A DNA stretch of 64,000 nt, from the NCBI RefSeq assembly GCF_000328765.2, contig NC_019954.2:62001-126000 (forward strand). The letters run 5' to 3'. A program made the translations under genes and the position numbers. The notes beneath the pieces were generated by a model that had not been told where the DNA came from, ran no database searches, and saw only the letters and a program-made list of their open reading frames with translations. The DNA is from Tepidanaerobacter acetatoxydans Re1. GTDB taxonomy: Bacteria; Bacillota; Thermosediminibacteria; Thermosediminibacterales; Tepidanaerobacteraceae. Shown here in pieces: positions 2,166 to 20,389 of this stretch; position 1 is the first letter of the stretch; each line of letters opens with the position of its first letter.

Positions 2166-2327
2166 TATATTTCTTGATTATGCTGCATAAAACTTAGTGT
2201 ATAAAGCTATGATCAGCATAATAATATGTTTCATATAATAATCAAAAGCAGTATGCCGGTATTTATGACCGGTAATTTTTATGTATAAAATAACTTTTAC
2301 TGTAGAGTCATTTTTTGTATTCAACAA

Positions 2328-2341
2328 GTATACTGTATACA
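2328..2341 (+). promoter_or_regulatory. Candidate operator with two GTATAC copies upstream of the AbgT operon
   Basis: The sequence GTATACTGTATACA contains two abutting GTATAC hexamers and the 8-mer CTGTATAC that recurs three times before the glutamate mutase operon (60259-60431). It lies about 100 bp before the transporter start. Symmetric GT..AC half-sites are typical of GntR/FadR-type regulators, but which protein binds here is inference. The rest of 2166-2439 is AT-rich, with one small hairpin (CCGGT at 2256-2260, ACCGG at 2268-2272) followed by a short T run. Confidence 0.4.
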
Positions 2342-2439
2342 TTTTAAAGCAAGAAGGATTTTTTGAAAAAAAAAGAGAATTCATAATAAAATATATATGG
2401 TCATGTAACCAAAATTTGGCCAAAAAAGGAGGAGAGCAT

Positions 2440-3966
2440 ATGATTCAAAAGGAATTAAAATCAAAAGGAGGTTTCGAGAGGTTTTTAGACTGGGTTGAAC
2501 GTGTAGGGAATAAACTACCGCATCCGTTTTTCTTATTTGTCTACTTGACGATAGCTATAATGCTCTTATCTGCCATTTTGTCTATGCTGGGGATTTCAGC
2601 GATAAATCCCGGCAGCGGAGAAGAGGTGATGGTTAAGAACCTTTTAACGCGAGAAGGTGTAGAGTGGATGCTGGTAAATGCCCTCAAAAACTTTACCGGT
2701 TTTGCTCCCCTTGGGCTGGTGCTTTCTATGCAAATGGGCATCGGTCTTGCGGAACAGGCGGGCTTGCTGTCTGCCTTTATGAGAAAAACCATGTATGGTG
2801 CGCCTTTATGGGCTATTAGTTTAGCGGTAATGTTTGTAGGTATAAATGGAAACATTGCATCAGATGCTTCCATAGTCATTATACCGACACTTGCGGCAAG
2901 CATCTTTCTTTCGCTGGGCAAAAATCCGCTGGTAGGTCTTATGGCAGGATATGCTGCAGCCTGTGCCGGATTTTCTGCAAATCTTATAATAGCCGGAACT
3001 GATGCGCTACTTGCAGGCATAACTCAAGAAGCGGTAAAAATCATAGATCCAAGTATTCAGGTCAACCCCTCTATTAACTGGTACTTTATGTTTGCCTCAA
3101 CATTTATCTTCACTTTTGTTGGAGCATGGGTCACTGAAAAAATCATAGCACCGAGACTTGGAGAATACAAAGGCAAGATAAAGGTTACAGAAAACCAAGA
3201 CCTTACACCTATTGAAAATCTTGCCCTAAAAAATACGGGCAAAGCAGCCTTGGTATTTCTTGCAATCTTGGCTGTTGCAGTACTGCCTAAAAATGCCATT
3301 TTAAGGAATGCTGAAACCGGCGGCCTGATACCCTCGCCGTTTTTAAACGGTATTATTCCCATTCTGATGTTGTTTTTTATAACGATTGGTGCAGCATACG
3401 GGAAAACCGTCGGCACCATAAAAACTGCAGGCGATATACCAAAGCTTATGGCTGAAGCCGTAAAAACCATGTCTGGATATATAGTGCTGGTTTTCATCAT
3501 AGGCCAGTTTGTAGCCTACTTTAACTGGACTAATATAGGTGTCATAATAGCGGTAAAAGGCGCGGAATTTTTGCAAACTGTGGGATTTACCGGTTTGCCG
3601 CTAATCATAGGAATAATTTTACTTTCTACTATAGTAAACATATTTATCGGCAGCGGCTCCGCCAAGTGGTCTATACTTGCACCCATATTTGTACCAATGC
3701 TGATGCTGCTCGGCTATTCTCCGGCAATGACTCAGGTGATATACCGTATTGGAGATTCTTCCACCAACCCTATAACACCGCTTTTTCCATACTTCCCCAT
3801 AGCGTTGGGTCTTGCTCAATACTATGATGAAGATGCCGGAATGGGGACCTTGATGTCTTTGATGCTGCCATATGCATTGATTTTTTTGATAGTGTGGATA
3901 TTGCAGCTGATAGTGTGGATGGTCTTAGATTTACCATTAGGGCCGGGAGCAGGCATTTATATGTAA
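2440..3966 (+). CDS. AbgT-family transporter (p-aminobenzoyl-glutamate or related acyl amino acids)
   Basis: This 508-residue integral membrane protein is exactly the length of E. coli AbgT. The start is the ATG at 2440, because AAAGGAGGAG lies 7 bases before it; the in-frame ATG at 2281 has no ribosome site. The N-terminus (FLDWVERVGNKLPHPFFLF) and the segment IGDSSTNPITPLFPYFPI are typical of the family, and about 11-13 hydrophobic segments are visible. It is followed after 28 bases by two M20D peptidases, as in the abg operon, so the imported compound is probably cleaved in the cytoplasm. In an amino-acid fermenter the true substrate may be N-acyl or dipeptide-like amino acids rather than a folate breakdown product. 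Confidence 0.85.
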   Translation: MIQKELKSKGGFERFLDWVERVGNKLPHPFFLFVYLTIAIMLLSAILSMLGISAINPGSGEEVMVKNLLTREGVEWMLVNALKNFTGFAPLGLVLSMQMGIGLAEQAGLLSAFMRKTMYGAPLWAISLAVMFVGINGNIASDASIVIIPTLAASIFLSLGKNPLVGLMAGYAAACAGFSANLIIAGTDALLAGITQEAVKIIDPSIQVNPSINWYFMFASTFIFTFVGAWVTEKIIAPRLGEYKGKIKVTENQDLTPIENLALKNTGKAALVFLAILAVAVLPKNAILRNAETGGLIPSPFLNGIIPILMLFFITIGAAYGKTVGTIKTAGDIPKLMAEAVKTMSGYIVLVFIIGQFVAYFNWTNIGVIIAVKGAEFLQTVGFTGLPLIIGIILLSTIVNIFIGSGSAKWSILAPIFVPMLMLLGYSPAMTQVIYRIGDSSTNPITPLFPYFPIALGLAQYYDEDAGMGTLMSLMLPYALIFLIVWILQLIVWMVLDLPLGPGAGIYM

Positions 3967-3994
3967 ATCTTTTAAAAAGGAGTGCCGAACTCAT

Positions 3995-5182
3995 ATGAAA
4001 GAATTAGACAAACAAATATCCGAGGTTTTAGAACATATAATATCAATCAGAAGGTATATTCATCAAAATCCGGAGCTGGGCTATGAGGAAAAAGCCACCT
4101 CAAAACTGGTAGCACAAGAGCTAAAATCCTCAGGCCTTGCCGTGCAGGAAGGCGTAGGAGGATACGGTGTAGTTGGGATTTTAGAAGGCAATCATCCGGG
4201 AAAAACTCTGCTGCTTAGAGCCGACATGGATGCTCTCCCTATGGAGGAAGAAACCGGGCTTCCTTTTAGCTCAAAAATTCCAGGCATCATGCATGCCTGC
4301 GGCCATGATATCCATACAGCTATACTGCTGGGCGTGGCTAGAGTTTTGTCAAAATACAAAGATTTCATCGCGGGACAAATAAAGTTTGTGTTTCAGCCGG
4401 CAGAGGAATGCAGCCCACAGGGTGGAGCTCAGAAGATGATAAAAGAAGGCATACTCGAAAATCCGGATGTAGACTATGCCTTGGCACTGCATGTATGGCC
4501 ACAGCTTTATGTGGGTGAAATAGGCCTATGCTCCGGACCTTGTTCGGCTAAGTCGGATCGGTTCTTTTTAAAAGTAACGGGTAAATCCGGCCACGCATCA
4601 GCTCCCCATCAAGGAATAGATGCATTAGTAGCGGCGGCGGATATAATATCAAGCATGCAGACCATAGTATCAAGGCGAGTGGATCCCAGGGACAGCATAG
4701 TTATTTCCATAGGCAAAATCACAGGCGGTCAAAGATATAATGTTATATGTGATAAAGTGGAGATGGAAGGTACCGTAAGAATCATGACACCGGGATATGA
4801 AGATGAAATCAGAAAATATATGAATCAAGTTGGGCAAGGCATAGCTTACGCCCATGGTACTTCTTTTGAAATGAATTATTTAAAAGGATACCCTATGGTG
4901 ATAAATGATGATCGCCTTACACAAAGGGTAAAAGATATTCTGACTGAAAAAATAGGTGAAAATGCTGTAAAAAACATTTCACAAGACACTTCCGGTGAAG
5001 ATTTTTCCTTTATTTCCCAAAAAGTGCCGTCAGTGTATATGAAACTAGGCTCATCCCCAAAAGATGCCAAGGAAGTACTGCCTCTACATAATAGCCGCGT
5101 AATCTTTGATGAAGGCTGCATACCTTTTGGCATTAAGGCCTTGGTAGCATTAAGCTTAGAACTCTTGCATCAGGAGGAATAG
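3995..5182 (+). CDS. M20D-family amidohydrolase/aminoacylase
   Basis: This 395-residue metallopeptidase belongs to the HipO/IAA-amino-acid-hydrolase type. Metal-binding signatures are visible in order: IMHACGHDIHTA (about residue 95), FQPAEE, ALHVWP, and LPLHNSRV near the C-terminus. The ATG at 3995 follows AAAAAGGAG. The middle part (about 185-295) is the dimerisation lobe with GKSGHASAPHQG. The family hydrolyses N-acyl or aminoacyl amides, and position in the operon suggests it acts on what the AbgT transporter brings in. Only one base separates its stop from the next gene. Confidence 0.85.
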   Translation: MKELDKQISEVLEHIISIRRYIHQNPELGYEEKATSKLVAQELKSSGLAVQEGVGGYGVVGILEGNHPGKTLLLRADMDALPMEEETGLPFSSKIPGIMHACGHDIHTAILLGVARVLSKYKDFIAGQIKFVFQPAEECSPQGGAQKMIKEGILENPDVDYALALHVWPQLYVGEIGLCSGPCSAKSDRFFLKVTGKSGHASAPHQGIDALVAAADIISSMQTIVSRRVDPRDSIVISIGKITGGQRYNVICDKVEMEGTVRIMTPGYEDEIRKYMNQVGQGIAYAHGTSFEMNYLKGYPMVINDDRLTQRVKDILTEKIGENAVKNISQDTSGEDFSFISQKVPSVYMKLGSSPKDAKEVLPLHNSRVIFDEGCIPFGIKALVALSLELLHQEE

Positions 5183-5183
5183 C

Positions 5184-6473
5184 ATGGATGATATAAAAAC
5201 ATTGGCAAAGAGCATAGAACCAAAGTTAATTGCATATCGCCGAGATTTTCATAAATACCCTGAAGTGGGCTGGACGGAATTTCGCACAAGCAGTAAAATA
5301 GCAAAAATTCTGATGGACTTAGGTTATGAAGTGAAACTTGGCAGAAAAATTCTAAAGGAAGAAGCAATCATGGGCTTGCCCCCGCAGCAGGAAATACGAA
5401 ATGAAATAGAGCGGGCAGTAAAAGAAGGAGCAAGTCCTAAAATCATAGAGATGATGGAAAATCTGCCGGGAGTCGTTGGAATCCTTCATACCGATAAACC
5501 GGGTCCTACGGTAGCCTTTCGCTTTGATATGGATGCACTGAGTATTACAGAAGCCCAAGATGATGAGCACAGACCATCTAGGGAAAGCTTTGCTTCGATG
5601 CATGACGGCATAATGCACGCTTGCGGTCATGACGGTCATACAGCAGTGGGCCTGGGCTTGGCAGAAATGCTCATGAAAGTTAAAGATAAGTTATCAGGAA
5701 CCATAAAACTTATTTTCCAGCCATCAGAGGAAGGAGTAAGGGGTGCCAGAGCCATGGTGGAAGCAGGCGTTGTAGATGATGTGGATTACTTTTTTGCTTT
5801 TCATATAGGCTTTGGAGCCACTGATTCAGTAAGCCTTGTAGCTAAGACCACAGGTTTTTTAGCTACTTCAAAAATAGATATTGATTATATAGGTCAAACT
5901 GCTCATGCTGGTGCTTGCCCGCAAGAAGGGAAAAATGCTCTATTGGCAGCTGCTTCCGCAGCACTCAACCTGCACGCCATAGCACCTCACAGCGATGGAA
6001 TCACCCGTATAAACGTAGGAGTGTTGACGGCAGGTACATCTGCCAATATAATACCCGGAAGTGCCCATATGAAAATCGAAACAAGAGGCGAAACCACAGC
6101 CCTAAATGATTACATGCAGGAGAAGGCAAAAAGTATACTCGAGGCTTGTGCAAAGATGTACGGCCTTGGCTGCCATATTACAGATGCCGGTGCTGCACCA
6201 AGTGCCAAAGGCGATGAAGAACTTGCCCAAATAGTAAAACAGGTTGGCGAAAACTTAGGGCTTTCGAGAATAGAAAATGAAAGTTATTTTGGTGCCAGTG
6301 ATGATGCTACGTATTTCATGGAAAAGGTTCAGTCACAAGGCGGTAAAGCGCTTTATTTTCAAGTTAAAACTCCAATTGCCGCTAATCATCACAACAGCAG
6401 GTTTGACTTTGACGAATCATGTCTAGTGATAGCACTTCAAATATGCACATGCTTGGCTCTTAATTTATTATAA
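5184..6473 (+). CDS. AbgA-like M20D peptidase (aminobenzoyl-glutamate utilisation type)
   Basis: This 429-residue protein is close to AbgA in length. Unlike its upstream neighbour it has an insertion after the first strand-helix units (GLPPQQEIRNEIERAVKEG), a feature of the AbgA branch. Metal-site motifs: IMHACGHDGHTA, FQPSEEGVRGA, NHHNSRFDFDE. The ribosome site (AGGAGG) lies inside the last codons of the upstream peptidase gene, so the two are translationally linked. In E. coli, AbgA and AbgB form a heterodimer; two adjacent M20D genes here may do the same. The operon ends here; no strong terminator was seen. Confidence 0.85.
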   Translation: MDDIKTLAKSIEPKLIAYRRDFHKYPEVGWTEFRTSSKIAKILMDLGYEVKLGRKILKEEAIMGLPPQQEIRNEIERAVKEGASPKIIEMMENLPGVVGILHTDKPGPTVAFRFDMDALSITEAQDDEHRPSRESFASMHDGIMHACGHDGHTAVGLGLAEMLMKVKDKLSGTIKLIFQPSEEGVRGARAMVEAGVVDDVDYFFAFHIGFGATDSVSLVAKTTGFLATSKIDIDYIGQTAHAGACPQEGKNALLAAASAALNLHAIAPHSDGITRINVGVLTAGTSANIIPGSAHMKIETRGETTALNDYMQEKAKSILEACAKMYGLGCHITDAGAAPSAKGDEELAQIVKQVGENLGLSRIENESYFGASDDATYFMEKVQSQGGKALYFQVKTPIAANHHNSRFDFDESCLVIALQICTCLALNLL

Positions 6474-6500
6474 AAAATCCCCACACTACGTTATTCCGAG

Positions 6501-6640
6501 TAAACAAAGCAGTGCTTCTGTCATGCTAAACAAAACGAAGCAGTACACATGATGTTCTAAACAAAATTAAGTTGTGCTGCATTACCCTATATGAAAAAAG
6601 TAGTAACTCTATCATTGTTATGAATATATACCTAAACAAA
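6501..6640 (+). repeat. Four copies of TAAACAAA in decayed DNA
   Basis: TAAACAAA occurs at 6501, 6527, 6558 and 6633, three of them followed by a loosely similar block (AAGCAGTGC-like). The stretch 6474-6716 has no gene and borders the IS110 relic, so it may be remnant end sequence of that element. No function is assigned. Confidence 0.3.
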
Positions 6641-6716
6641 GACGCACTTAACTAAGGGTGGTTGATTAATCACCCTTCGACCAGCTCAAAGAGCAATGCC
6701 CAAAAAAAATTATATT

Positions 6717-7320
6717 TTAGGTAGCCACTGAAACGGGAAATGACACACTTAATTCTTGTAATTTTTTAAAGTAATAATTAGCTTTTTTCTCTTTATTGAA
6801 CTTTGTATAATAATCGCTACCTAGATCCTTAAAAGGAACATTATCTTTTAACATGTGGTATATTGCAATGAGCATGGAATGGGCTACGGCAGCAGTTGCT
6901 CTATCAGCTTACGGCTACTTACACCGGTTAAGCTGGAAGCGAAAGAACTTAGCTTTATATTAGCACCTTCTAAGGTTTTTTCTAGACGATTAAGTTCTCT
7001 TGAACGCTCTTCGATTAGATTTTTACGGCAGCGTACTATTTCACGAAGTTCGCGTTGTTCCTTATCAGGGATAAAACTACTCTTTAAAAGACTATGTTGT
7101 AAAAGATCTGCTATCCATTGAGCATCTTTGATATCAGTTTTACGCCCGGGGACAGTTTTCATGTGATGTGCATTAACAACCATCACATCAATGTTTGGTA
7201 ATTCCAGAATGTTATAGATAGGTTTCCAATAAGCTCCCGTACTTCTGCTTTTTTCCCGTTTCTAAAGCAGGCAACAATAAGTTTTTTGTGCACGTCAATC
7301 CCACAACAACGCTCATAAAC
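6717..7320 (-). pseudogene. IS110-family transposase remnant (internally deleted and frameshifted)
   Basis: Read on the minus strand, the N-terminus (ERCCGIDVHKK) is the DEDD-type start of IS110 transposases. A frameshift around 7190-7200 leads to VNAHHMKTVPGRKTDIKDAQW and the following helical part. After RKLIEQ the frame changes again and joins the extreme C-terminus ([17 protein letters not shown], ending FPVSVAT at a TAA complementary to 6717-6719). About half of the usual roughly 400 codons is missing. It is unlike the intact IS110 copy at 45.6 kb, so it is a different, dead element. Confidence 0.8.
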
Positions 7321-7580
7321 AGTTTGTATAATAATATTCCTTGCTATTGTTATTATGGCGTTACCCCTGTCTTAATAGCTACATTGCTATACGTCTTTCA
7401 AAGACAATTTGTGGTTCTGCAGCAGGAGTATTTTCAAATTCTGAGTCGATCTCATTGTGACAATGACACTCGAACTCATGCCATAACTAGTGTATAATCA
7501 AGGAATAGCAATTAATATTCGTTTATTGTGGCATTGATGTGACTTAAAGAGAAAGCAAGATTTGAAGTATTTTCAGCAAT

Positions 7581-7609
7581 TTGACAATAAATAAATATAG
7601 TAGTATAAT
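7581..7609 (+). promoter_or_regulatory. Consensus sigma-A promoter for the ROK-type regulator and operon
   Basis: TTGACA at 7581-7586, a 17-base spacer and TATAAT at 7604-7609 match the consensus exactly. It sits 59 bases upstream of the regulator start and may serve the whole 7.7-17.7 kb cluster, since no terminator with a T-run was seen before 17.7 kb. The rest of 7321-7667 is AT-rich and holds nothing else I recognise. Confidence 0.7.
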
Positions 7610-7667
7610 TATTTTAAATTATAAATACTTCTTACGAGCTTAATAATAAGCTATAGTTGGTGAATAA

Positions 7668-8582
7668 ATGCTAGATCAATTAAAAATAAAAAATTTAACA
7701 AATATTTTAGTTAATTTATTTTCTAAGCAGAGAGCAACCAAGACACAACTAGTTGAGCTGACTGGGCTGAGTAATTCGACAGTGTCTTCCTCGGTTAATA
7801 GTCTGCTCAAGCTTAAACTATTAGTTTGCAATGGTATGGAAGATTCAATTGGCGGTCGTCGCTCGGCAATCTATGAAATTAATAAGGATTATGGTCAGTT
7901 TCTAGGCGTAGATTTATTCAAAAACACAATTCGCGTTGTTATTACTGATTGCAAAAGTAATAAGCTTAATAGCTTTACTTATTATTTAAATAAAGAGGTT
8001 CCCGTAATTGATCAACTTATACAACAGTTGCAGAAGGCTGCTGAAAGTTGCATAAATTTGCTTGGCATTGGCATAGGTCTTTTGGCTGAAATCAAACATG
8101 ATGAGCAAATTGTTAAAAGTTGTACATTTTATGATTGGCATAGTGTGAATTTAAAGGAAATTATCGAACGCCAGTTCATGGTATTTACATATATCGATCA
8201 CAGAGCTAATGGCATAGCCGCCCGTGAAAACCTTATGGGACATGGTAAGCACTTAAATAATATTCTATGTTTACATGAATCTGCAATAGATAAAGCTGTT
8301 CTTATCCTTTCAGGTAAAATCTGTCGTGGTGAGCTAAACTGTAATGGAACTATAGACTCCAGATTTTTGTTAAAGAATCTAAGTACTATTAAACGCTTTG
8401 TAGACGTATCCCATATCTTAATTGGATATTGTACAGAAGCGCTTGAAATAGAAACAAGGCAACTGGTGCGATCACTAGGAAATCAGATAATCTGCTATCC
8501 AGAAGCAGAGAACTGTATTGAACTAGGCATGGCTACAGTTGCTGAAATTGAATGGTTTGAATCTATCTATTTCATGCTCTGA
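7668..8582 (+). CDS. ROK/NagC-type transcriptional regulator with degenerate sugar-binding half
   Basis: This 304-residue protein has an N-terminal winged HTH (residues about 10-75, ATKTQLVELTGLSNSTVSSSVN and a GGRRSAIYEI wing), followed by a ROK-like ASKHA fold (LGVDLFKNTIRVVITD; ILCLHESAIDKAVLILSGK). It is about 80-100 residues shorter than typical NagC/XylR proteins. The glycine-rich phosphate loop and the CxCGxxGCxE zinc motif are not present (only RGELNCNGTIDSR), so kinase activity is unlikely and the ligand pocket is altered. It starts the cluster, 36 bases before the permease, and probably controls it. Confidence 0.7.
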   Translation: MLDQLKIKNLTNILVNLFSKQRATKTQLVELTGLSNSTVSSSVNSLLKLKLLVCNGMEDSIGGRRSAIYEINKDYGQFLGVDLFKNTIRVVITDCKSNKLNSFTYYLNKEVPVIDQLIQQLQKAAESCINLLGIGIGLLAEIKHDEQIVKSCTFYDWHSVNLKEIIERQFMVFTYIDHRANGIAARENLMGHGKHLNNILCLHESAIDKAVLILSGKICRGELNCNGTIDSRFLLKNLSTIKRFVDVSHILIGYCTEALEIETRQLVRSLGNQIICYPEAENCIELGMATVAEIEWFESIYFML

Positions 8583-8618
8583 TGTAAATATTAAAACAAT
8601 ATTGTAAGGGGGATTATT

Positions 8619-9917
8619 ATGACAACGGCATTACTTGTTATTATCTTTATTGCTATAAGCGTATTAATGTACACGAAAAAATTGTCAGCCCTTTATGCAC
8701 TTCCTCTAATGGCATTTTTAATGGCTTTAGTTTCGGGAATTCCTTTTGTTGATGGTGTTGAAGGCGAACCTGGTATTCTAACTCTTATGTTCGTCGAAGG
8801 ACCTGTACGCTTAGCATCTGCTATAATGATACTAATTTTTGGTGCAATTCTTGCACAATATGTTAAAAATACTGGTATCGCTGAAGCTGTTATACGAAAA
8901 GTATCTGAGTTAGCTGGAGACCGTCCATTGGTATTAGGCATATCATTTTTTGTAGTGCTTAGCTTACTTTTTACAACTCTAGGTGGACTCGGATCGGTTA
9001 TCATGATTGGAAGTATTGTATTGCCCATTATGACTTCAGTAGGAATAACGCCACTTGATGCTGGTTGTATACTTCTTTTTGCCCTCAGCACAGGAGGGAT
9101 CTTTAATCTTGCAAATTGGGGTTTATATATCGACGCTATGGGGCTTACTGTTGAACAAATTCGCAGCTTTGCATTCCCTTTAGGGGCAATTTTCTTTGTA
9201 CTCGGCATCTTATTCGTCTATATTAATGTCCAGCACGGAGGTAAACTATTTAGTAAAAAGAAAATAGCATGGCCAACTCCAGAAATTTCGCAAAATACTG
9301 ATTCTGCTCCAAATAATGTGAATGTCCTTGCTATGTTAACCCCTATAGTTCCTCTTATTATGGTAATTGGTCTTCATGTGGATATTATAACTGGGTTTGT
9401 AACTGCTATCATTTACTGTATGATTACTACTGCTAACAAAGACACATTTAACCAACTTACAAAATCTATAACAGATGGAATTTCAACTTCTGCAGGTGCT
9501 ATTTTTCTCATTATTGGAATTGGTATGTTGCTTAAAGTAGTTATGGATCCGCGAGTTACCCAGCACATTGGTCCTCAGCTGGCAAGAATTTTACCAACAA
9601 CAGGTATTGGATATATAATTTTCTTTGCAATTTTAGCGCCGCTAGCACTTTATCGCGGACCGCTGAATGTTTGGGGACTTGGTTTGGGTATAGGTGCTAC
9701 TATGATGGCGACTGGGAAAATACCTGCCATGGCTTTAATGGCTGCCCTTATGTCTACTGGACAGCTTCAAGGTATATGTGATCCTACAAACACCCATAAT
9801 GTTTGGACTGCTACTGCAACTGGAACCGATGTAAATGATATTCTCAGAAAAACCTTGCCCTATGCTTGGGTCGGTGCAATAATGGGGTTAATTATAGCAG
9901 GCATCTTGTATTTCTAA
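8619..9917 (+). CDS. Ion-transporter-superfamily permease (Gnt/citrate-type)
   Basis: This 432-residue protein has about 11-12 hydrophobic segments. The layout and motifs (GGLGSVIMIGSIVLPIM; ALYRGPLNVWGLG; MSTGQLQGICDPTNTHNVWTATATG) are those of GntP/citrate-type carboxylate permeases, which import organic anions with protons or sodium. The ribosome site AAGGGGG precedes the ATG at 8619. It is the only transporter in the cluster, so the pathway probably begins with an organic acid or zwitterion. The specific substrate cannot be told from sequence alone. Confidence 0.65.
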   Translation: MTTALLVIIFIAISVLMYTKKLSALYALPLMAFLMALVSGIPFVDGVEGEPGILTLMFVEGPVRLASAIMILIFGAILAQYVKNTGIAEAVIRKVSELAGDRPLVLGISFFVVLSLLFTTLGGLGSVIMIGSIVLPIMTSVGITPLDAGCILLFALSTGGIFNLANWGLYIDAMGLTVEQIRSFAFPLGAIFFVLGILFVYINVQHGGKLFSKKKIAWPTPEISQNTDSAPNNVNVLAMLTPIVPLIMVIGLHVDIITGFVTAIIYCMITTANKDTFNQLTKSITDGISTSAGAIFLIIGIGMLLKVVMDPRVTQHIGPQLARILPTTGIGYIIFFAILAPLALYRGPLNVWGLGLGIGATMMATGKIPAMALMAALMSTGQLQGICDPTNTHNVWTATATGTDVNDILRKTLPYAWVGAIMGLIIAGILYF

Positions 9918-9972
9918 GACAAAAACTAGACAAAGCTTAGTGCTGAGACAGCCTCTTAGTCAAAGCAGATTA

Positions 9973-10002
9973 AAGGCAACTCAATCAAATATGGGTTGCC
10001 TT
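9973..10002 (+). other. Hairpin between the permease and hydantoinase-like genes
   Basis: AAGGCAAC (9973-9980) pairs with GTTGCCTT (9995-10002). There is no T tract after it, so it is more likely an mRNA processing, stability or attenuation element than a full terminator. Confidence 0.35.
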
Positions 10003-10031
10003 ATCACAATATATTGGAGGATCATAGAAAG

Positions 10032-12188
10032 ATGAGCAAGCAATTCATACGCATTGGCATAGATGTTGGTGGCACTTTTACACATGCAGTAGCTATTCAA
10101 GCTCCTGAAAATCTTGTTGTGGCACATGCTGTTACTCCTACAACACATACATCAGAAAATTCTATATCAGATGGGATTATTAAGGTATTTAAAGATGTCA
10201 TGAAGAAAACCGGAGCAATACCAGAGGATGTCTCTTTTGTAGCTCATAGCACGACTCAGGCAACCAATGCATTGCTAGAAGGAGATGTTGCCAAGGTTGG
10301 TATTGTAGGCATGGGAAAAGGATTAGAGGCGTTTAAGGCAAAAGCCGACACACACATAAAGGATATCGTGCTCAGTCCCGGAAAAATACTTCATACAAGC
10401 CATGTCTTTATTAATTCGAGTGAAAAAAATTTTAATTTATCCAAGATTGAACAAGCAATTGAAACATTAATAGAAGAAGGTTGCGAGGTTATTGTAGCTA
10501 GTGAAGCTTTTAGTGTAGACGATCCTAGTAATGAGCAGCTTGTCCTTGAGATAGCTTATAAAAAAGGTTTGCCTGCAACAGCTAGCCATGAAATTTCTCA
10601 ACTATACGGACTTAAGGTGCGCACTCGCACAGCAGTTATAAATGCCAGTATCCTGCCAAAGATGACATCTACAGCAGAGCTAACTGATAAAAGCATTAAG
10701 GAAAGCGGCATAACTGCCCCTCTGATGATTATGAGAAGCGACGGAGGGGTTATGGATCTTGAACAAATGAAAAAGCGACCAATTCTTACGATGCTGTCAG
10801 GACCTGCAGCAGGTATTGCAGCAGCTATTATGTATACCAAGATTTCCGATGGAGTATTTCTTGAAGTCGGAGGAACAAGTACTGATATAGCAGCCATCAA
10901 AAACGGCAAAGCCATGATCAAAAGCGCTAATATAGGTGGACATTTAACTTATTTAAAAACTCTTGATTCTAGAACTGTCGGTATAGGCGGAGGTTCTATG
11001 GTACGCATTCGAGATAGGGTAGTTACTGAAGTTGGACCTCGAAGCGCACATATCGCCGGTTTGAGCTACCTTGCTTTTTGTGATGAGAAAGAGATTGCAC
11101 AGGTAACTCCTGCATTTATTAGACCAATGGAGTCTGATCCTGACGATTATCTTGTTGCAGTTAATCCGCAAGGTAAACGATTTGCTGTAACACTTACTGA
11201 TGCATCTATTGTGGCAGGTATGACAAGACCTGGTGATTATGCTTATGGCAATGAAGCAGCTGTGCGCAATGCCTTTGATCAATTAGGTAAAAGTTTAGGG
11301 ATAAGTGGTCAAGAATTAGCTTATAGCATTTTGAATAAGGCTATATCTAAAGTGCGTCCAATAGTAGAAGATCTTTTAGATGAATATAAATTGGATAAAG
11401 AACTTGTATCTTTGGTCGGCGGTGGAGGAGGAGCAACAACAGTTGTACCGTGGCTTAGCAAAAATATGGAGATGAAGTATCTTATTGCCGAGAATGCTGA
11501 AATAATTTCTGCCATTGGCGTGGCATTAGCTATGTTACGTGATAGTGTAGAGCGTACAGTCGTCAATCCTACCGAGCATGATATTATTTCAATACGTAAA
11601 GAAGCGATTGGACGTTTGGAATCTATGGGAGCAGCTCCGGAAACAATTGAGGTGCAAATAGAAATAGATAATTCAAAAAATATCCTCAGAGCTACAGCAA
11701 CTGGCGCCTTTCACATGGATACAAGCGTTACAAATTTAAAACCACTTAGCAAAAGTGAAATTGCCCAGAAGGCAGCCGAATCATTTAAAACAGATGTAAA
11801 TGAGATTAAACTCGTAGCAGCAACTGATGGCTTGCTAGTTTATCAGCATTGTGAAACAGTAAAAGGCTTGTTTGGCATTTTCACCCGACAACGCTGCCAT
11901 TATCGCGTCATAGACAATTTTGGCATCATTAAACTGCAGTGTTCAGGAGCTGCACTCCAAACAGTTATGCATAAAGCTGATCATGAAGTCCCAGCTTTTA
12001 TCGAGAAAAACTCAATATATAATGACGCAGGCATGATTATTCCCGAAGTCTTCGTTCTATATAAAAGTCGCATTGCCGACTTTTCAACTATCCTTGATTT
12101 TGAAAAAATTAAGGAGCTTATTAAAATTGAATTGCAAGGCTTAAAACAAGATGAACCGGTAGTAGTTATTGTTCAACCCAGGAAATGA
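10032..12188 (+). CDS. Hydantoinase/oxoprolinase-family protein (HyuA-like)
   Basis: This 718-residue protein starts at ATG 10032, eleven bases after TTGGAGG; an in-frame TTG at 9996 lies in the preceding hairpin and is less likely. The ASKHA ATPase motifs are clear: IGIDVGGTFTHAVA at the start, STTQATNALLEG, MLSGPAAGIAAA, LEVGGTSTDIAA and VGIGGGS. This is the architecture of the ATP-dependent HyuA/5-oxoprolinase A subunit, which opens lactam or hydantoin rings or carboxylates ketones. No HyuB partner is next to it, which is unusual and suggests a different partner or reaction. It is preceded by a permease and followed by a TIM-barrel protein. Confidence 0.75.
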   Translation: MSKQFIRIGIDVGGTFTHAVAIQAPENLVVAHAVTPTTHTSENSISDGIIKVFKDVMKKTGAIPEDVSFVAHSTTQATNALLEGDVAKVGIVGMGKGLEAFKAKADTHIKDIVLSPGKILHTSHVFINSSEKNFNLSKIEQAIETLIEEGCEVIVASEAFSVDDPSNEQLVLEIAYKKGLPATASHEISQLYGLKVRTRTAVINASILPKMTSTAELTDKSIKESGITAPLMIMRSDGGVMDLEQMKKRPILTMLSGPAAGIAAAIMYTKISDGVFLEVGGTSTDIAAIKNGKAMIKSANIGGHLTYLKTLDSRTVGIGGGSMVRIRDRVVTEVGPRSAHIAGLSYLAFCDEKEIAQVTPAFIRPMESDPDDYLVAVNPQGKRFAVTLTDASIVAGMTRPGDYAYGNEAAVRNAFDQLGKSLGISGQELAYSILNKAISKVRPIVEDLLDEYKLDKELVSLVGGGGGATTVVPWLSKNMEMKYLIAENAEIISAIGVALAMLRDSVERTVVNPTEHDIISIRKEAIGRLESMGAAPETIEVQIEIDNSKNILRATATGAFHMDTSVTNLKPLSKSEIAQKAAESFKTDVNEIKLVAATDGLLVYQHCETVKGLFGIFTRQRCHYRVIDNFGIIKLQCSGAALQTVMHKADHEVPAFIEKNSIYNDAGMIIPEVFVLYKSRIADFSTILDFEKIKELIKIELQGLKQDEPVVVIVQPRK

Positions 12189-12198
12189 GAGGTGTATT

Positions 12199-12885
12199 AT
12201 GAATAACAGATTTGTTAAACTTTTACAAGATCCTAAGATGACTCTTATTATGAGTTTGCCATCTAACGACCCAGTTCTTGCTAGGGCAGCATGGCAAAAT
12301 GGCGCAGATGTTTTAAAAGTGCATATTAATGTGGAACATCGCGCTAGCAAAACGACTTTTTATAATTTTGAAAGAGAAAAAGACCAACTAAATATAATTC
12401 TTGCAGAAGCCAAAGGACCGTGTGGCATAGTATTAGGTGGCGATGTGCAGTCTGCTAGGAATGATTTTAAGCATGTGGTTCAAGCTGGATTTGAATTTGT
12501 TTCGCTCTATGCTCATCATACGCCTATAATCGTGTTACAAAGTGAGTCATTATCTAAAATGATTGCTATTGATTATAGCTACACATTGGATGATATAAAA
12601 GCCTTTAATAGCATTGGTATTGATGTGCTGGAAGCCTCTATTGTAGAACCTCAAGCTTATGGACAACCTTTAACTGCAAAAGATTTATTGCGATATCATA
12701 ATATCTGTTGCGGCACTGATATTCCGGTAGTAGTGCCAACTCAAAAGGCTATTTTGCCTGAAGAAGTCTCAGCTCTTTGTCAATGTGGTGTTGCAGGCAT
12801 AATGCTAGGTGCTGTAGTTACTGGCAAAACAGCCGATAGCATTGCCCGTTCTGTGGCTGAATTTCGCAATCAAATTGATAAATGA
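12199..12885 (+). CDS. Uncharacterised TIM-barrel protein
   Basis: This 228-residue protein starts at ATG 12199 after GAGAGGTG. It has alternating beta and alpha segments with barrel-like motifs: LARAAWQNGADVLKVHIN, GIVLGGDVQSA, GFEFVSLYAHHTPI, IGIDVLEASIVEPQAYG, IPVVVPTQKAILPEEVSAL and a C-terminal phosphate-type loop VAGIMLGAVVTGKTAD. The pattern resembles NanE/HisF/KDPG-aldolase-like barrels, but I do not recognise a specific family. The enzyme may act on a small phosphorylated or acidic intermediate made by the neighbouring HyuA-like protein. Function unassigned. Confidence 0.6.
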   Translation: MNNRFVKLLQDPKMTLIMSLPSNDPVLARAAWQNGADVLKVHINVEHRASKTTFYNFEREKDQLNIILAEAKGPCGIVLGGDVQSARNDFKHVVQAGFEFVSLYAHHTPIIVLQSESLSKMIAIDYSYTLDDIKAFNSIGIDVLEASIVEPQAYGQPLTAKDLLRYHNICCGTDIPVVVPTQKAILPEEVSALCQCGVAGIMLGAVVTGKTADSIARSVAEFRNQIDK

Positions 12886-12899
12886 TAGGTGATTATGTA

Positions 12900-14381
12900 A
12901 TGAAGATTTGTTTATTGCCATTAGACTCGCGACCTTGCAATTATCGGTTTCCTCAGCAGCTTGCAAATTTGAGAGGGGTTAATCTGATCGAGCCCCCCAT
13001 AGACATAATGGACTTTTTTAAAACACCTTCCAATAGTAGGGCAATCGCTGACTGGTTAAAAATAAATTGTAGCGATGCAGATGTTTTGGTTGTTTCAATA
13101 GATCAGCTTGTGTATGGTGGATTAATTGCCTCACGCACTAACACAAAATCTCTTTCTGAAGCTCAGTCACAGTTAATGCTATTAAAAGATATTAAAAAAG
13201 CTAATCCTCAATTGCGAATTTTTGCTTTTAACGTTTTGATGCGTATTTCAATAAGCGCAGTTGACAAACAAAGTCAGATTTGGTGGCAAAAGATCACGGA
13301 GTATTCTCAATTAAAATATCGATCAATAATAGGTGAACAAGAGGAAAAAGAGAGAGCAAATGCTCAATTAGCTCATTTGACAAAAGAAATTCCATCATCA
13401 ATCCTGAATGAATTTTTAGAGGTAAGACGTCGCAACCATACGATTAATATGGAATGCATCTCTTTGGTAAGTCAAGGAATTTTAGAGCAATTAGTTATTT
13501 TGCAAGAAGATTGTTCGGAAGATGCGATACAGGTTTTTGAACAAGACATTATCAGAAAGACGATTAATGAATATGGTTTACAAAATAGGGTATTTATCCA
13601 TAATGGCACAGATGAAGCGGGTATGGAGCTTACTGTCCAAGCTATTGCACCTCAGAGGCAGACGACTTGTGACATACAGTGGCTATCAGAGAATCGTTAT
13701 TTTACTGCCCGGTATGAAGATCGCCCATTTATAGAGAATCTTGCAAGTCATATGAGTATGATGAATATAATATATGATCCTCATGCCAAAAATTGCTTAT
13801 TCATATTACCCCCGGCAGACCAGCAAGGCGATTATTGTCCGGAAAAATTGCCAATGGTTGATTATACTCCTACCCAACGAACACTTATGATCAACAAAAT
13901 TTTAGAGCAGATAGAGAAGGGCAAATGCTGTTATTTGTTAGATCTTGTATATGCCAATGGCGGAGATTTAGCTTTTTTAGAGGCTCTTGCTGCTAAGATA
14001 CCTCTTACTAGATTATATGGTTATGCTGCCTGGAATACTGCCAGTAATTCACTAGGTACCATACTTGCGCAGATAATAGCTGCAGATGGTCAAAATACGC
14101 CAGCAAATAAACGCTTTACCACCGAACGCTTACTAGATGATCTTATTTATCAAGCGTTTATACGTCAAGAGCTGCAAGAAGAACTACAGCTAGCTGGCCA
14201 AGATATTTGGAACATTACAGATCTTCCCAGGGCAAACAAAATGTTAAATTACCAATTTGATAAGAACAGGCAATTCATAAGAAGATTTTTGCCAATTGAA
14301 ACTAGAGATTTTAAAAAAAGGTTGCCCTGGCCAAGAACCTTTGAAGTAGATATAGAAGTATATAAAAATGATGATATTTAA
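12900..14381 (+). CDS. DUF4127-family protein
   Basis: This 493-residue cytoplasmic protein starts at ATG 12900 after AGGTGATT; an ATG at 12882 overlapping the upstream stop is an alternative that adds six residues. The N-terminus (MKICLLPLDSRPCNYRFP) is the hallmark of the DUF4127 family, which has no established function to my knowledge. Further marks are VVSIDQLVYGGLIASR, FIHNGTDEAGMELTVQAIA and YGYAAWNTASNSLG. The conserved polar DSRP, DQLVYGG and NTASN segments look like an active site. It is co-directional with the TIM-barrel and FAD genes, which fits a metabolic enzyme of one pathway. Confidence 0.75.
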   Translation: MKICLLPLDSRPCNYRFPQQLANLRGVNLIEPPIDIMDFFKTPSNSRAIADWLKINCSDADVLVVSIDQLVYGGLIASRTNTKSLSEAQSQLMLLKDIKKANPQLRIFAFNVLMRISISAVDKQSQIWWQKITEYSQLKYRSIIGEQEEKERANAQLAHLTKEIPSSILNEFLEVRRRNHTINMECISLVSQGILEQLVILQEDCSEDAIQVFEQDIIRKTINEYGLQNRVFIHNGTDEAGMELTVQAIAPQRQTTCDIQWLSENRYFTARYEDRPFIENLASHMSMMNIIYDPHAKNCLFILPPADQQGDYCPEKLPMVDYTPTQRTLMINKILEQIEKGKCCYLLDLVYANGGDLAFLEALAAKIPLTRLYGYAAWNTASNSLGTILAQIIAADGQNTPANKRFTTERLLDDLIYQAFIRQELQEELQLAGQDIWNITDLPRANKMLNYQFDKNRQFIRRFLPIETRDFKKRLPWPRTFEVDIEVYKNDDI

Positions 14382-14404
14382 AGAAGAACGGAGAGGTTTT
14401 ATCT

Positions 14405-15757
14405 ATGAAAAAAAATTATGACGTGATCGTAGCAGGGGCAGGGACAAGCGGCATTGCTGCGGCGCTTTCCGCAGCTCGCAATGGCATGAGTGTTCTGCTC
14501 ATAGATAAAAATGCTTATCCCGGTGGGACGAACACTGCAGCGATGGTTGGTCCCATTATGACCTTCCATTCAGGCTCAAAACAAATCATTAAAGGTATTC
14601 CTCAAGAGATTATAGATCGTTTAGCTCAAAAAGATGCAACATTGGGACATATTCCAGATCCAATTGGGATGGTTTCAACTATTACTCCTATAGATCCAGA
14701 AATACTTAAGTTGGTATACTTTGAAATGCTAGATAATGAAAAGAGTATCACTACCCTTCTGCATAGTTATATTTACTCAGTGGAACGCGAAGATAATTGT
14801 GTAAAAAGCGTTACTGTAGTAAACAAAAATGGGCTAGCTACTTATAAAGCTAAGGTTTTTATTGATGCCACAGGGGATGGGGATTTAGCTGCCATGTGTA
14901 AAGCAGATTTCTGGTTTGGTCGCACCAGTGACAATCTAACTCAACCCATGACACTTATTTTTACTCTTGCAGAGGTAGATTTGGAAAAAGTAATAGATTA
15001 TGTTTATCAAAATCCCGAGCAATTCATTTTAAATAAGAATTGCAATCTTCATGACTACGTAGCTGTCTCGGGGTTCTTCGACTTGGTTGTTAAAGCTAAA
15101 AATAATGGCGATTTATCAATACCCCGAGATAGAGTGCTATTCTTCCAGAGTGTACATCCGGGTGAAGTATTAGTAAATATGACACGAGTTACTAAACTTT
15201 CTGCTATTAATGTTAAAGATCTCACCTTTGCAGAATTTCTTTTACACGAGCAAATAAAAGAACTACTGAAGTTTTTCAGAAAATATGTACCTGGCTTTGA
15301 GCACTGCTATATAAGAAATATTGCTCCTATGATAGGCATAAGAGAAAGTCGCCGCATAAAAGGATTGGAAACTCTAACTGACGATGATGTTATTCACAAT
15401 ACATGTAGTGAAAGAAGTGTGGCAGTTTGCGCTTTTCCAATTGATATTCATGATCCAGCTGGCAACAAACTTAATTGGATAAGAAAAGAAAAAGAGTGTT
15501 GCTATGATATTCCATATGGTGTTATGGTGCCAATCGAAATCAAGAATTTGCTTGTTACCGGTAGATGCATTTCTGCAACCCATGAAGCATTGGCTTCAGC
15601 TAGAATTTCTGCAACTGCCATGGCACTAGGTGAGGCTGCGGGGTTAGCTGCTTCCCTTAGTGTTAAGCAAAACATTGATTTTGCTGACGTGAAAGTATCT
15701 GAACTTCAGAGTGCTCTTGTAAATCAAGGTGCCATACCGGGTAAGCGTTGGTTGTGA
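14405..15757 (+). CDS. FAD-dependent oxidoreductase
   Basis: This 450-residue protein has the Rossmann dinucleotide motif at the N-terminus (DVIVAGAGTSGIAAALSAAR), the FAD-ribose acid (LLIDKNAYPGGTNTAAM), an FIDATGDGDLAAM motif and a C-terminal FAD-closing segment (LVTGRCISATHEALASARI). This is the FAD_oxidored-type fold seen in dehydrogenases of hydroxy or amino acids. GAGAGG lies eight bases before the ATG at 14405. It probably carries out the redox step of the cluster's pathway; the substrate is unknown. Confidence 0.8.
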   Translation: MKKNYDVIVAGAGTSGIAAALSAARNGMSVLLIDKNAYPGGTNTAAMVGPIMTFHSGSKQIIKGIPQEIIDRLAQKDATLGHIPDPIGMVSTITPIDPEILKLVYFEMLDNEKSITTLLHSYIYSVEREDNCVKSVTVVNKNGLATYKAKVFIDATGDGDLAAMCKADFWFGRTSDNLTQPMTLIFTLAEVDLEKVIDYVYQNPEQFILNKNCNLHDYVAVSGFFDLVVKAKNNGDLSIPRDRVLFFQSVHPGEVLVNMTRVTKLSAINVKDLTFAEFLLHEQIKELLKFFRKYVPGFEHCYIRNIAPMIGIRESRRIKGLETLTDDDVIHNTCSERSVAVCAFPIDIHDPAGNKLNWIRKEKECCYDIPYGVMVPIEIKNLLVTGRCISATHEALASARISATAMALGEAAGLAASLSVKQNIDFADVKVSELQSALVNQGAIPGKRWL

Positions 15758-16383
15758 ACATAGTGTGGAATAAAGAAACGGTGAATGTGAAAATATTAGA
15801 TTTTTGTCTTTGGCTGTCTTCACCTATGTACGCTCGAATAGAATCTAGAAAATTGGAGCAGCTGTATAATGAAAGTGTAAAATACGGACAAACTTTGGCA
15901 AGTAAATATCCATTGAAAAATGAAAATATACAAAGCGAGCTTATAGATTACGGTGTTTCCGAAATACAAACTTTTCAAACATTAAGGCTGAAAAACGTCA
16001 GCGAAAAAGCATACTATGATATTGATACCAAACAAATACTTTGGGATGATCAATTTGCTCTAACTCTTTTTCAGAAAGATGATCAAGCAGAAGAACTATT
16101 AGGGTCTGTGCAGAAGGTAGAGCAAGCTCTTCTCATTCATGAATTTTTCCATTTTATTGAGGAGAATTTCGAGATGCCCACTGATGAATTTGTATTTCCG
16201 AATTGCCATACTAATATCGCATCAATTTTTAGAGAAATTGCAGCATTCGCCTTTACCAACGTGGAGTTAGATAATTATATTTGCCAGTTTATCGATGTCT
16301 TATCGCTAAAAATTAATAAACCTACGCAGTACAATGAGCTGTGCAGGCAATATCTTATAAGAGAGAAGGAAACTCATATATGA
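15748..16383 (+). CDS. Unknown protein with HExxH metallopeptidase-like motif
   Basis: This protein of about 200-211 residues overlaps the end of the FAD gene. The exact start is unclear: TTG 15748, or GTG at 15754, 15763 or 15781, all without a strong ribosome site, which suggests translational coupling. The key visible motif is LIHEFFHFIEENFEMP, an HExxH zinc-binding signature, followed by a second acidic helix (NIASIFREIAAFAFTNVE) that could give the third ligand. No signal peptide or membrane segment is seen. Its stop overlaps the next start (ATGA). A small cytoplasmic zinc protease or hydrolase is possible; I do not recognise the family. Confidence 0.55.
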   Translation: MVVNIVWNKETVNVKILDFCLWLSSPMYARIESRKLEQLYNESVKYGQTLASKYPLKNENIQSELIDYGVSEIQTFQTLRLKNVSEKAYYDIDTKQILWDDQFALTLFQKDDQAEELLGSVQKVEQALLIHEFFHFIEENFEMPTDEFVFPNCHTNIASIFREIAAFAFTNVELDNYICQFIDVLSLKINKPTQYNELCRQYLIREKETHI

Positions 16384-17696
16384 AAAAGGTAACTAAAATG
16401 GCAGTATTCTTGTCGATTATTTGCCTTGCAGCATTTACGTCGACATTTACGGTTTTTGCAGCATCAAATAACTTTACGAATGCATCTATCCCTGAGGTCG
16501 TAGCAGATGAAAATTCTCCAAACTTAGAGCTTAAACACAAAATATATATAGAAAATTTTGCAGATGGAGTTGTGAGTGTAGTAAATAAGCAGGGAAAACA
16601 TACCGTAATTGGTAAAGTGTATCGCCCTGCAACATTAGCCAAAGAATCATCCGATGGTTTTTGGGCAGCACACTATGACAAAGCATCTGATGGAACTTTT
16701 TCATGTGTAACCGCAATTGGCGTTAATGCACTACATTTAAAAGTTGGTCCTCGAGCAAGCTACGATGTTTTAAATCCTACTGCATGGAAACCAAAACAAA
16801 TTAGCGTGGGCATAAATGAAGACTACATATACGCTGGCGGCTCTTATAGCAATTCAATGATTTATACATCGGTGCCTGGTGGAGTAAATATTTTTGGAGG
16901 CTCTACTGCGCCTTATGTAGGTAATCCAGTTAAATATCTAAATAGCAGCGGCACATGGGAGTCGCTGGACAATTATTATAATGATGATTATAGCAAAGCA
17001 GTGCCCAAACGTTTACTGATTGAAGTGTATCAGCCTATAACAACTAATGGGACACTTGATTATATTGAGTTCGAAAACTGGGCTGCTGGCGATACGGTAG
17101 CAGGCATTACTAAAATCAATAATGGTCGTGTCATAGCAAAGTACTCTAATGGCACAATTAAACACATTGCGGACATTATTCAGCGTGTCCAAGGAACAGG
17201 TCGCTTTGGAGGTAGCGAGTATGCTGAGGTAGGTCGTTTGCGCGCAGCACACCCAGGAGTTATCTGTTTTTCTACAAGTCCAAAAATTGGATTCACCAAC
17301 AATGCAAATCTACGCGGTGGTTTTCAGTTTGTGCCTGCAAATCATGCTAAGTATTTAAATTATAATCTTTCTCAGGATTCTTTCATCGGCCGTGACCAAT
17401 GGGGCATTATTGCACATATTGGCGCTGACCCATCACAACTGTATGACCCTAATTACATCATTAATGGTCATATAACTTATGACCCTGTGTGGGAGGGTGT
17501 GGCACCTCTTTTTGCAGAATATCTTGCTCCGCGCCACATTCCAGGTAGCGTATCTACTTCTACCTATTTTGTAGTATCAAATGATTTTGGCAATACATGG
17601 AATGACTGTCCTAGCATTCAAGGAATAACAAATGCAGATAATTCACCAGTAGCATCATGGACTAACATTAGATTATATGTAAAATATCCGAATTAA
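16380..17696 (+). CDS. Secreted protein of unknown function, last gene of the cluster
   Basis: This 438-residue protein starts at ATG 16380, which overlaps the previous stop and follows AAGGAAA. A classical signal peptide is visible (KK, then AVFLSIICLAAFTSTF, cleavage near VFAAS). The mature part is rich in Asn, Gly, Tyr and Ser with beta-strand-like repeats (YAGGSYSNSMIYTSVPGG; FGGSTAPYVG; FVVSNDFGNTWNDCP). It lacks cell-wall anchoring motifs and recognised catalytic motifs. Being coupled to an HExxH gene and co-transcribed with a catabolic cluster, it could be an extracellular binding or degrading protein for the pathway's substrate. Function unassigned. Confidence 0.6.
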   Translation: MKKVTKMAVFLSIICLAAFTSTFTVFAASNNFTNASIPEVVADENSPNLELKHKIYIENFADGVVSVVNKQGKHTVIGKVYRPATLAKESSDGFWAAHYDKASDGTFSCVTAIGVNALHLKVGPRASYDVLNPTAWKPKQISVGINEDYIYAGGSYSNSMIYTSVPGGVNIFGGSTAPYVGNPVKYLNSSGTWESLDNYYNDDYSKAVPKRLLIEVYQPITTNGTLDYIEFENWAAGDTVAGITKINNGRVIAKYSNGTIKHIADIIQRVQGTGRFGGSEYAEVGRLRAAHPGVICFSTSPKIGFTNNANLRGGFQFVPANHAKYLNYNLSQDSFIGRDQWGIIAHIGADPSQLYDPNYIINGHITYDPVWEGVAPLFAEYLAPRHIPGSVSTSTYFVVSNDFGNTWNDCPSIQGITNADNSPVASWTNIRLYVKYPN

Positions 17697-17878
17697 CATG
17701 CAAATTGTAATCTCAATATTAACATTATTTAAGTCTGCCTTGCTTAATCAAGGGAAATTTTTAACAATAGGTTTAGCTAAATGCGCTAGGAGCCTTTATA
17801 TGTACTAAAAATGTCAGAGGCGTGTCACATATATTTGATTTCTCTACACTACTTTTAGGTATTTAAGCTTCAGCCTCC

Positions 17879-17907
17879 TTGACTTTCTTGCCCTAATGTG
17901 ATATAAA
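17879..17907 (+). promoter_or_regulatory. Sigma-A promoter for the metG T-box transcript
   Basis: TTGACT (17879-17884), a 17-base spacer and TATAAA (17902-17907) lie about 30 bases before the T-box leader. The 180 bases before it, after the previous gene, show nothing else I can name. Confidence 0.65.
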
Positions 17908-17936
17908 TTTGATTAATCCAAGTAATTAGCCAAATC

Positions 17937-18230
17937 AAAGACTGTGAAGGGAAGAGTAGGCAAGAGGGATAGGCTTAAAGAGAGCCGGGACGGGTGAAAG
18001 CCGGTGCTAAAGACCTTGCTGAAGATGGCCCCTGAGTCTGACTGCCGATAGGTAGGCAGTCACGGGAAAGGACCGTTAAAATCCTTCAGGTATCGGAAGA
18101 TTTATGAAACTTATGGCATCTATAGAGTATAGAGTAAATGTTCCCGCACCTGGCAAAGGCCTTTATTAGGCGAATTTGGGTGGTACCGCGAGAGTCCCTC
18201 GCCCCTTTTTATTGGGGGCGGGGGTTTTTG
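17937..18230 (+). ncRNA. T-box leader (methionine), controlling metG
   Basis: The leader contains the conserved T-box sequence TGGGTGGTACCGCG at 18177-18190, immediately followed by a GC-rich terminator (CCTCGCCCC / GGGGGCGGGG with T5, 18196-18230). A long structured 5' part includes an ATG triplet at 18025-18027 in the right region to be the specifier codon, which matches the downstream methionyl-tRNA synthetase. Uncharged tRNA-Met would stabilise the antiterminator. The specifier placement is by eye and was not checked by folding. Confidence 0.9.
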
Positions 18231-18247
18231 CTATTAAAACAAGTTAA

Positions 18248-20389
<2,142 letters not shown>

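Follow-up and report, generated by a model that had tools for sequence, protein, structure and literature searches.

The window analyzed here, 64,000 nt of the Tepidanaerobacter acetatoxydans Re1 genome (NC_019954.2, 62,001-126,000; coordinates below are window positions), carries an operon that belongs to a system of two modules: an uptake and activation module (permease, HyuA-like ATPase, and HExxH protein) and a core composed of a TIM barrel protein, an FAD-dependent oxidoreductase, and often a DUF4127 protein. Complete or partial versions of it occur in many microbes that are only distantly related. We give an even chance to the reading that this operon moves horizontally and serves to import and degrade a compound derived from a carbohydrate, most likely a sugar derivative that is acidic or bears an amide or lactam, for instance an amino-sugar acid. 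The system was nowhere described in the literature searched, which covered HyuA without HyuB, hydantoinase with a citrate transporter and FAD oxidoreductase, and spore muramic lactam. Through its operon structure, it makes DUF4127 and a phosphate-binding TIM barrel that lacks annotation accessible to study and brings several uncharacterized families into one testable sugar-use pathway.

Layout of the operon and its gene products

All eight ORFs between 7668 and 17696 were found on one strand (Table 1), downstream of the sole 12/12 promoter site within 6400-18500, which confirmed the first-pass annotation of co-directional genes following a ROK regulator with a perfect promoter. It had reported three overlapping or nearly overlapping junctions; four were found to overlap or to lie within about 10 nt: HyuA to TIM barrel (stop at 12188, ATG at 12199), TIM barrel to DUF4127 (end at 12885, start at 12882, a 4-nt overlap), FAD oxidoreductase to HExxH protein (end at 15757, start at 15748), and HExxH protein to secreted protein (end at 16383, ATG at about 16380). 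The conserved start of the HyuA-like protein lies at about 10032 and that of the DUF4127 protein probably at about 12900, within ORFs open from 9996 and 12882, respectively. The permease, the TIM barrel, the HExxH protein, and the secreted protein matched no Pfam or NCBIfam family above the cut-off.

Table 1. Features of the operon, in window positions
Feature	Position	Strand	Basis
Predicted promoter TTGACA-17-TATAAT	7581-7609	+	12/12 consensus match
Short ROK-type regulator (HTH and first part of ROK domain)	7668-8582	+	PF00480
Permease, probably ion-transporter superfamily (organic anion)	8619-9917	+	Weak profile matches of homologs
HyuA-like ATPase, subfamily without HyuB	9996-12188	+	PF05378 and PF01968
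Phosphate-binding-type TIM barrel, new family	12199-12885	+	Model and Foldseek
DUF4127 protein	12882-14381	+	PF13552
FAD-dependent oxidoreductase	14405-15757	+	PF12831
Small HExxH...E gluzincin-like protein	15748-16383	+	Invariant motif residues
Secreted protein with signal peptide, loosely attached	16380-17696	+	Homologs beside TIM barrel/DUF4127

The operon stops before a T-box leader (RF00230, 106 bits) at 17935-18209, which belongs to the next gene, metG, encoding methionyl-tRNA synthetase. On the upstream side, an IS110-like transposase fragment, recognized by eye, lies at 6884-7186 on the minus strand between the operon and an abg-like unit (2281-6473; aminobenzoyl-glutamate or N-acyl amino acid) in which an AbgT-type transporter gene (PF03806, 632 bits) precedes two M20 amidohydrolase genes. 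The genome is a single contig of 2.76 Mb, and DUF4127, the HyuA-like gene, the TIM barrel gene, and full-length PF12831 each occur in it once, all inside the operon.

The regulator had been called degenerate. Its ROK match (31 bits) is indeed restricted to residues 79-202, corresponding to domain positions 2-128 of 294, and a complete ROK domain was not found in it, while the HTH region is present. The idea of decay did not hold, because the ortholog of Treponema lecithinolyticum has nearly the same length (302 versus 304 aa), which argues for a conserved short form. For the permease, 15 homologs gave weak matches to CitMHS, DcuC, DctM, and Na_H_antiporter profiles (DcuC, 1e-10; CitMHS, 2e-6; DctM, 5e-6; 0.044 for the window protein itself), and comparison with the PDB pointed to the isethionate DctM protein (E 3e-5). 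Judged by these weak DcuC, CitMHS, and DctM matches, the permease probably belongs to the ion-transporter superfamily and would carry an organic anion.

Structure prediction, suggested earlier for the TIM barrel and the DUF4127 protein, yielded a confident model of each. The TIM barrel model (pLDDT 97) retrieved TrpA, RPE, NanE, and class II FBA with Foldseek (E about 1e-8 to 1e-6), and weak profile similarity to ThiE, NanE, and HisA was observed, with an hhalign probability of 96.6 for NanE. These closest folds and the profile similarity suggest that the protein likely acts on a phosphorylated substrate. It shares the predicted fold with NanE and related phosphate-binding TIM barrels (RPE, HisA, ThiE, TrpA) and has an end of the phosphate-binding type, GAVVTG. 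An assignment as NanE itself was rejected: there is no Pfam match, and in the hhalign alignment the positions that we take to be the catalytic Lys and Glu of NanE hold other residues, whereas the window protein has its own invariant residues K40, H42, H47, and E145. The DUF4127 protein matched PF13552 over its full length (493 bits, 1e-147, positions 1-489), and its model was confident (pLDDT 93), with 20 invariant positions that are mostly polar or glycine. At E<=1e-3 the model matched no fold in the PDB, a PDB profile search with the protein returned no relative, and a literature search on DUF4127 yielded no paper. The fold hits were weak, and even the best, xylose isomerase (E 2e-3, TM 0.2), was rejected as homology. 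We infer that DUF4127 is an enzyme. The FAD oxidoreductase matched PF12831 over its full length (397 bits, positions 1-416).

Co-occurrence of the genes and the two modules

In T. lecithinolyticum the whole order ROK-permease-HyuA-TIM barrel-DUF4127-FAD-HExxH is kept, with identities of 51% (ROK), 71% (permease), 61% (HyuA), 51% (TIM barrel), 43% (DUF4127), 66% (FAD oxidoreductase), and 43% (HExxH protein). In the tree of TIM barrel proteins the window protein is sister to that of Treponema, followed by Roseburia sp. (supports 98/87 and 98/90), and neither the TIM barrel nor the HyuA-like protein was found in the searched relatives of the window's own genus and family. This distribution, together with the transposase fragment just upstream, suggests that the operon was likely gained horizontally.

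Unbiased whole-genome counts over a phylum sample of 398 genomes detected DUF4127 in 62, a strongly matching TIM barrel in 15, and the HyuA-like subfamily in 21. Thirteen of the 15 TIM barrel genomes also carry DUF4127 (genome-level Fisher p 8e-10), and 8 of the 21 HyuA-like genomes carry the TIM barrel (genome-level Fisher p 7e-8). The earlier description as an uncharacterized catabolic cluster was thus borne out, the genes co-occurring across genomes far beyond chance.

We also compared about 80 neighborhoods around DUF4127 and 61 named TIM barrel loci. Locus counts were obtained by profile searches over all ORFs and dereplicated at 80% identity; since loci were collected via DUF4127 or the TIM barrel and partly via HyuA, the following locus proportions are not unbiased. 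Of the 63 dereplicated TIM barrel loci, 43 have an FAD oxidoreductase gene nearby, 34 have DUF4127, 25 a carbohydrate ABC permease gene, and 17 the HyuA-like gene. Around 29 dereplicated HyuA-like loci we found the permease in 27 cases, the HExxH protein in 24, the FAD oxidoreductase in 19, the TIM barrel in 14, and DUF4127 in 5. As the DUF4127 counts show, this gene is not the center around which the cluster had been thought to be built.

HyuA and an ABC importer occurred together at a single one of the 63 TIM barrel loci (Fisher p 0.001). At sister loci, carbohydrate ABC importers stand in place of permease, HyuA, and HExxH protein, while TIM barrel and FAD oxidoreductase stay. Such loci, which combine LacI or ROK regulators with PF12831, share the TIM barrel, the FAD oxidoreductase, and in part DUF4127 with the window operon but differ from it in the uptake genes. 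On plasmids of rhizobia and Deinococcus, for example, genes for LacI, FAD oxidoreductase, a carbohydrate ABC importer, and the TIM barrel are present and DUF4127 is absent. HyuA-type and ABC-type loci are interleaved on the TIM barrel tree, where at least three changes between them are forced by well supported branches and five occur on the best tree. ROK regulators were found near 13 of the 17 HyuA-type TIM barrel loci and LacI near 13 of the 25 ABC-type loci.

The HyuA-like ATPase and its HExxH neighbor

HyuA proteins are known as parts of enzymes built from an A and a B subunit. The window protein contains the Hydant_A_N (PF05378) and Hydantoinase_A (PF01968) domains, and its subfamily is sharply set apart, full-length members scoring 833-1172 bits versus 210 for the next protein. 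HyuB (PF02538, with an Asp-His-Asp-His metal site) was not detected in the 2.76-Mb genome by a search whose control was positive in 6 genomes, so that the earlier statement of a HyuA without a HyuB holds genome-wide. It is absent likewise from 20 of the 21 genomes carrying the subfamily, and the sole HyuB among them is encoded about 1.08 Mb from the HyuA-like gene.

Caprolactamase CapAB has its ATP site in CapA; the metal site at which the activated lactam undergoes opening belongs to CapB and is essential (PMC8453981). About 330 residues of the N-terminal ATPase region of the window protein can be aligned with this enzyme group (CapAB, 5-oxoprolinase, N-methylhydantoinase; 6e-44 for the last), whereas the C-terminal half hardly aligns. 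Comparison of the CapA ATP-site residues D11, T15, D18, K32, D295, G298, T299, and D302 showed that D11 and T15 are kept in all HyuA-like proteins compared and the GGT motif (G298/T299) in all but a truncated copy. The position of D295 is occupied by E in 44 of 46 proteins, and in the window and Treponema proteins H replaces D18 and V replaces K32. These exchanges suggest that the ATP site of the window protein may be altered. The protein differs from the HyuAB enzymes further in the missing B subunit, the adjoining small HExxH...E protein, and the sugar context.

In the HExxH protein, H131, E132, H135, and E163 are invariant among 20 homologs, which corresponds to the gluzincin pattern. With small gluzincin-type metallopeptidases (Zincin_1, minigluzincins) it shares HExxH and the downstream Glu, but it belongs to no Pfam family at the cut-off, had no relative in a PDB profile search, and is tied to the HyuA-like ATPase. 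A whole-genome search found it in 15 of 348 genomes, and all 15 also carry the HyuA-like subfamily. The two genes almost always adjoin; in one fragmented assembly they lie on different contigs. Haloarchaeal plasmids carry citrate transporter-HyuA-HExxH together with an FAD oxidoreductase gene, the small archaeal proteins matching the HExxH profile at 40-57 bits. A sulfatase and an AGE epimerase are encoded nearby at two of three haloarchaeal loci (Halostagnicola, Halocatena), and GH3 also in Halostagnicola.

With the A-type protein kept, the B subunit gone, and an HExxH...E protein tied to the A-type protein, it is simplest to assume that this small protein would supply the metal site. We propose, tentatively, that the orphan HyuA-type ATPase and an unrelated small HExxH...E protein, a putative zinc protein replacing HyuB, could form a new two-component ATP-dependent hydrolase whose substrate would be an amide, lactam, or lactone derived from a sugar, and that this pair, together with an anion permease of its own, may move among bacteria and haloarchaea. 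The idea of a strict two-component hydrolase is weakened by loci with permease and HyuA at which no HExxH protein was detected (L191, L192, L204). If it is correct, a widespread HyuA subfamily without HyuB would show how the chemistry can be rebuilt with another partner, from a small, metalloprotein-like family that has no Pfam model.

It is doubtful, though still worth weighing, that the HyuA-like protein is simply a kinase for sugars or sugar acids, built on the superfold that it shares with such enzymes, and that the HExxH protein plays a side part in regulation or proteolysis. The near-universal lack of HyuB, the frequency of the superfold among sugar kinases, and the resemblance of the TIM barrel to enzymes of phosphorylated sugars fit such a kinase; yet PfkB or FGGY-like kinases already adjoin HyuA at L183, L184, L193/L194, and L175, and the HExxH protein is restricted to HyuA-like genomes. 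We consider it unlikely that the ATPase and the HExxH protein serve uptake by energizing, gating, or maturing the permease, in which case the three together would do the work of an ABC importer. Such a role would fit the adjacency of the permease and HyuA genes at nearly all loci, even at L191 and L192, where the other system genes are missing, and the exchange of the trio for ABC importers; but an ATPase is not required by secondary carriers of the permease superfamily, the relatives of HyuA work on small molecules, and no ATPase of the HyuA family is known to us to drive a transporter.

Genomic surroundings and candidate substrates

Neighbors of HyuA-type loci include GntR/UTRA and ROK regulators, PfkB, SIS, KDPG aldolase, and OMPdecase/HUMPS proteins, further RraA-like proteins, mannitol dehydrogenase, and glycerate kinase. 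Those of ABC-type loci are LacI, GH3, GH20, GH84, NanE, SIS_2, and an SGNH esterase. What these genes share is a link to carbohydrate use, which leans toward amino sugars in the ABC types and, in some HyuA types, toward sugar acids. GH, NanE, and SIS genes occur in a minority of the loci, and the window's own operon has none. As the neighbors vary by locus (amino-sugar, sugar-acid, unrelated), the compound may vary too. Elsewhere in the window genome, NanE and two glucosamine-isomerase-family genes are present, through which amino-sugar products could enter central metabolism.

Three examples illustrate the range of these surroundings. In L193 (8668-19188) and L194, the HyuA-like gene is part of a sugar-acid locus with genes for a PfkB kinase, a HUMPS/OMPdecase protein, an SIS isomerase, the HExxH protein, and a PrpR-like activator, and, judged by the sequence start, KdgT-like, OtnK-like, and PdxA-like proteins; L194 also has a KDPG aldolase gene. 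In L132 (9983-20528), one gene run comprises TIM barrel, DUF4127, GH84, NanE, GHL10, and a fusion of GntR-UTRA with an acetyltransferase. The third, L033 (6826-14189), comes from a member of the same family as the window and combines DUF4127 with genes for NanE-like and ROK-kinase-like proteins and for an ABC sugar importer.

The sugar regulators, the carbohydrate ABC importers, and the sugar-type neighbors indicate that the substrate is most likely carbohydrate-derived and not a generic hydantoin. A lactam or another carbonyl substrate is possible. Muramic-delta-lactam is attractive because of GH3, SIS, and NanE neighbors combined with lactam chemistry, and we name it as a guess. In the pathway we envisage, the short ROK protein would sense the compound and the permease would bring it in as an anion. 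The HyuA-like ATPase would spend ATP to activate it by phosphorylating a carbonyl or hydroxyl group, and the HExxH...E protein, acting as a metal-dependent hydrolase in place of HyuB, would open the ring or bond. The product would be oxidized by the FAD oxidoreductase, and the NanE/RPE-like TIM barrel might act as isomerase, epimerase, or lyase on a phosphorylated intermediate. DUF4127, present in part of the systems, would be a further enzyme.

The first-pass annotation had instead proposed degradation of an organic acid, lactam, or hydantoin-like compound. As a pathway unrelated to sugars, this is improbable. The HyuA ancestry (N-methylhydantoinase, CapA, oxoprolinase), the organic-anion permease class, an amidohydrolase gene beside two loci, and the AbgT and M20 genes directly upstream of the window operon are in line with it; against it, homologous loci repeatedly feature regulators of the sugar type and ABC importers for carbohydrates. 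The organic acid remains compatible with the permease class, while the hydantoin-like compound found no support, HyuB being absent and the surroundings being those of carbohydrate use.

Although DUF4127 and FAD genes are also found apart from the rest, a coincidental neighborhood of unrelated genes can practically be dismissed, given a gene order kept across phyla at 43-71% identity and the co-occurrence described above; it is refuted for the TIM barrel, FAD oxidoreductase, HyuA, permease, and HExxH protein and possible only for the secreted protein. Homologs of the latter are rare (2 of 398 genomes), the four among the fetched neighborhoods (L114, L143, L147, L166) all lying beside TIM barrel/DUF4127 genes. 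At three of these loci, from Armatimonadota/WS1 (L143, L147, L166), where no ABC importer or FAD gene is located nearby, the homolog is encoded directly upstream of TIM barrel and DUF4127.
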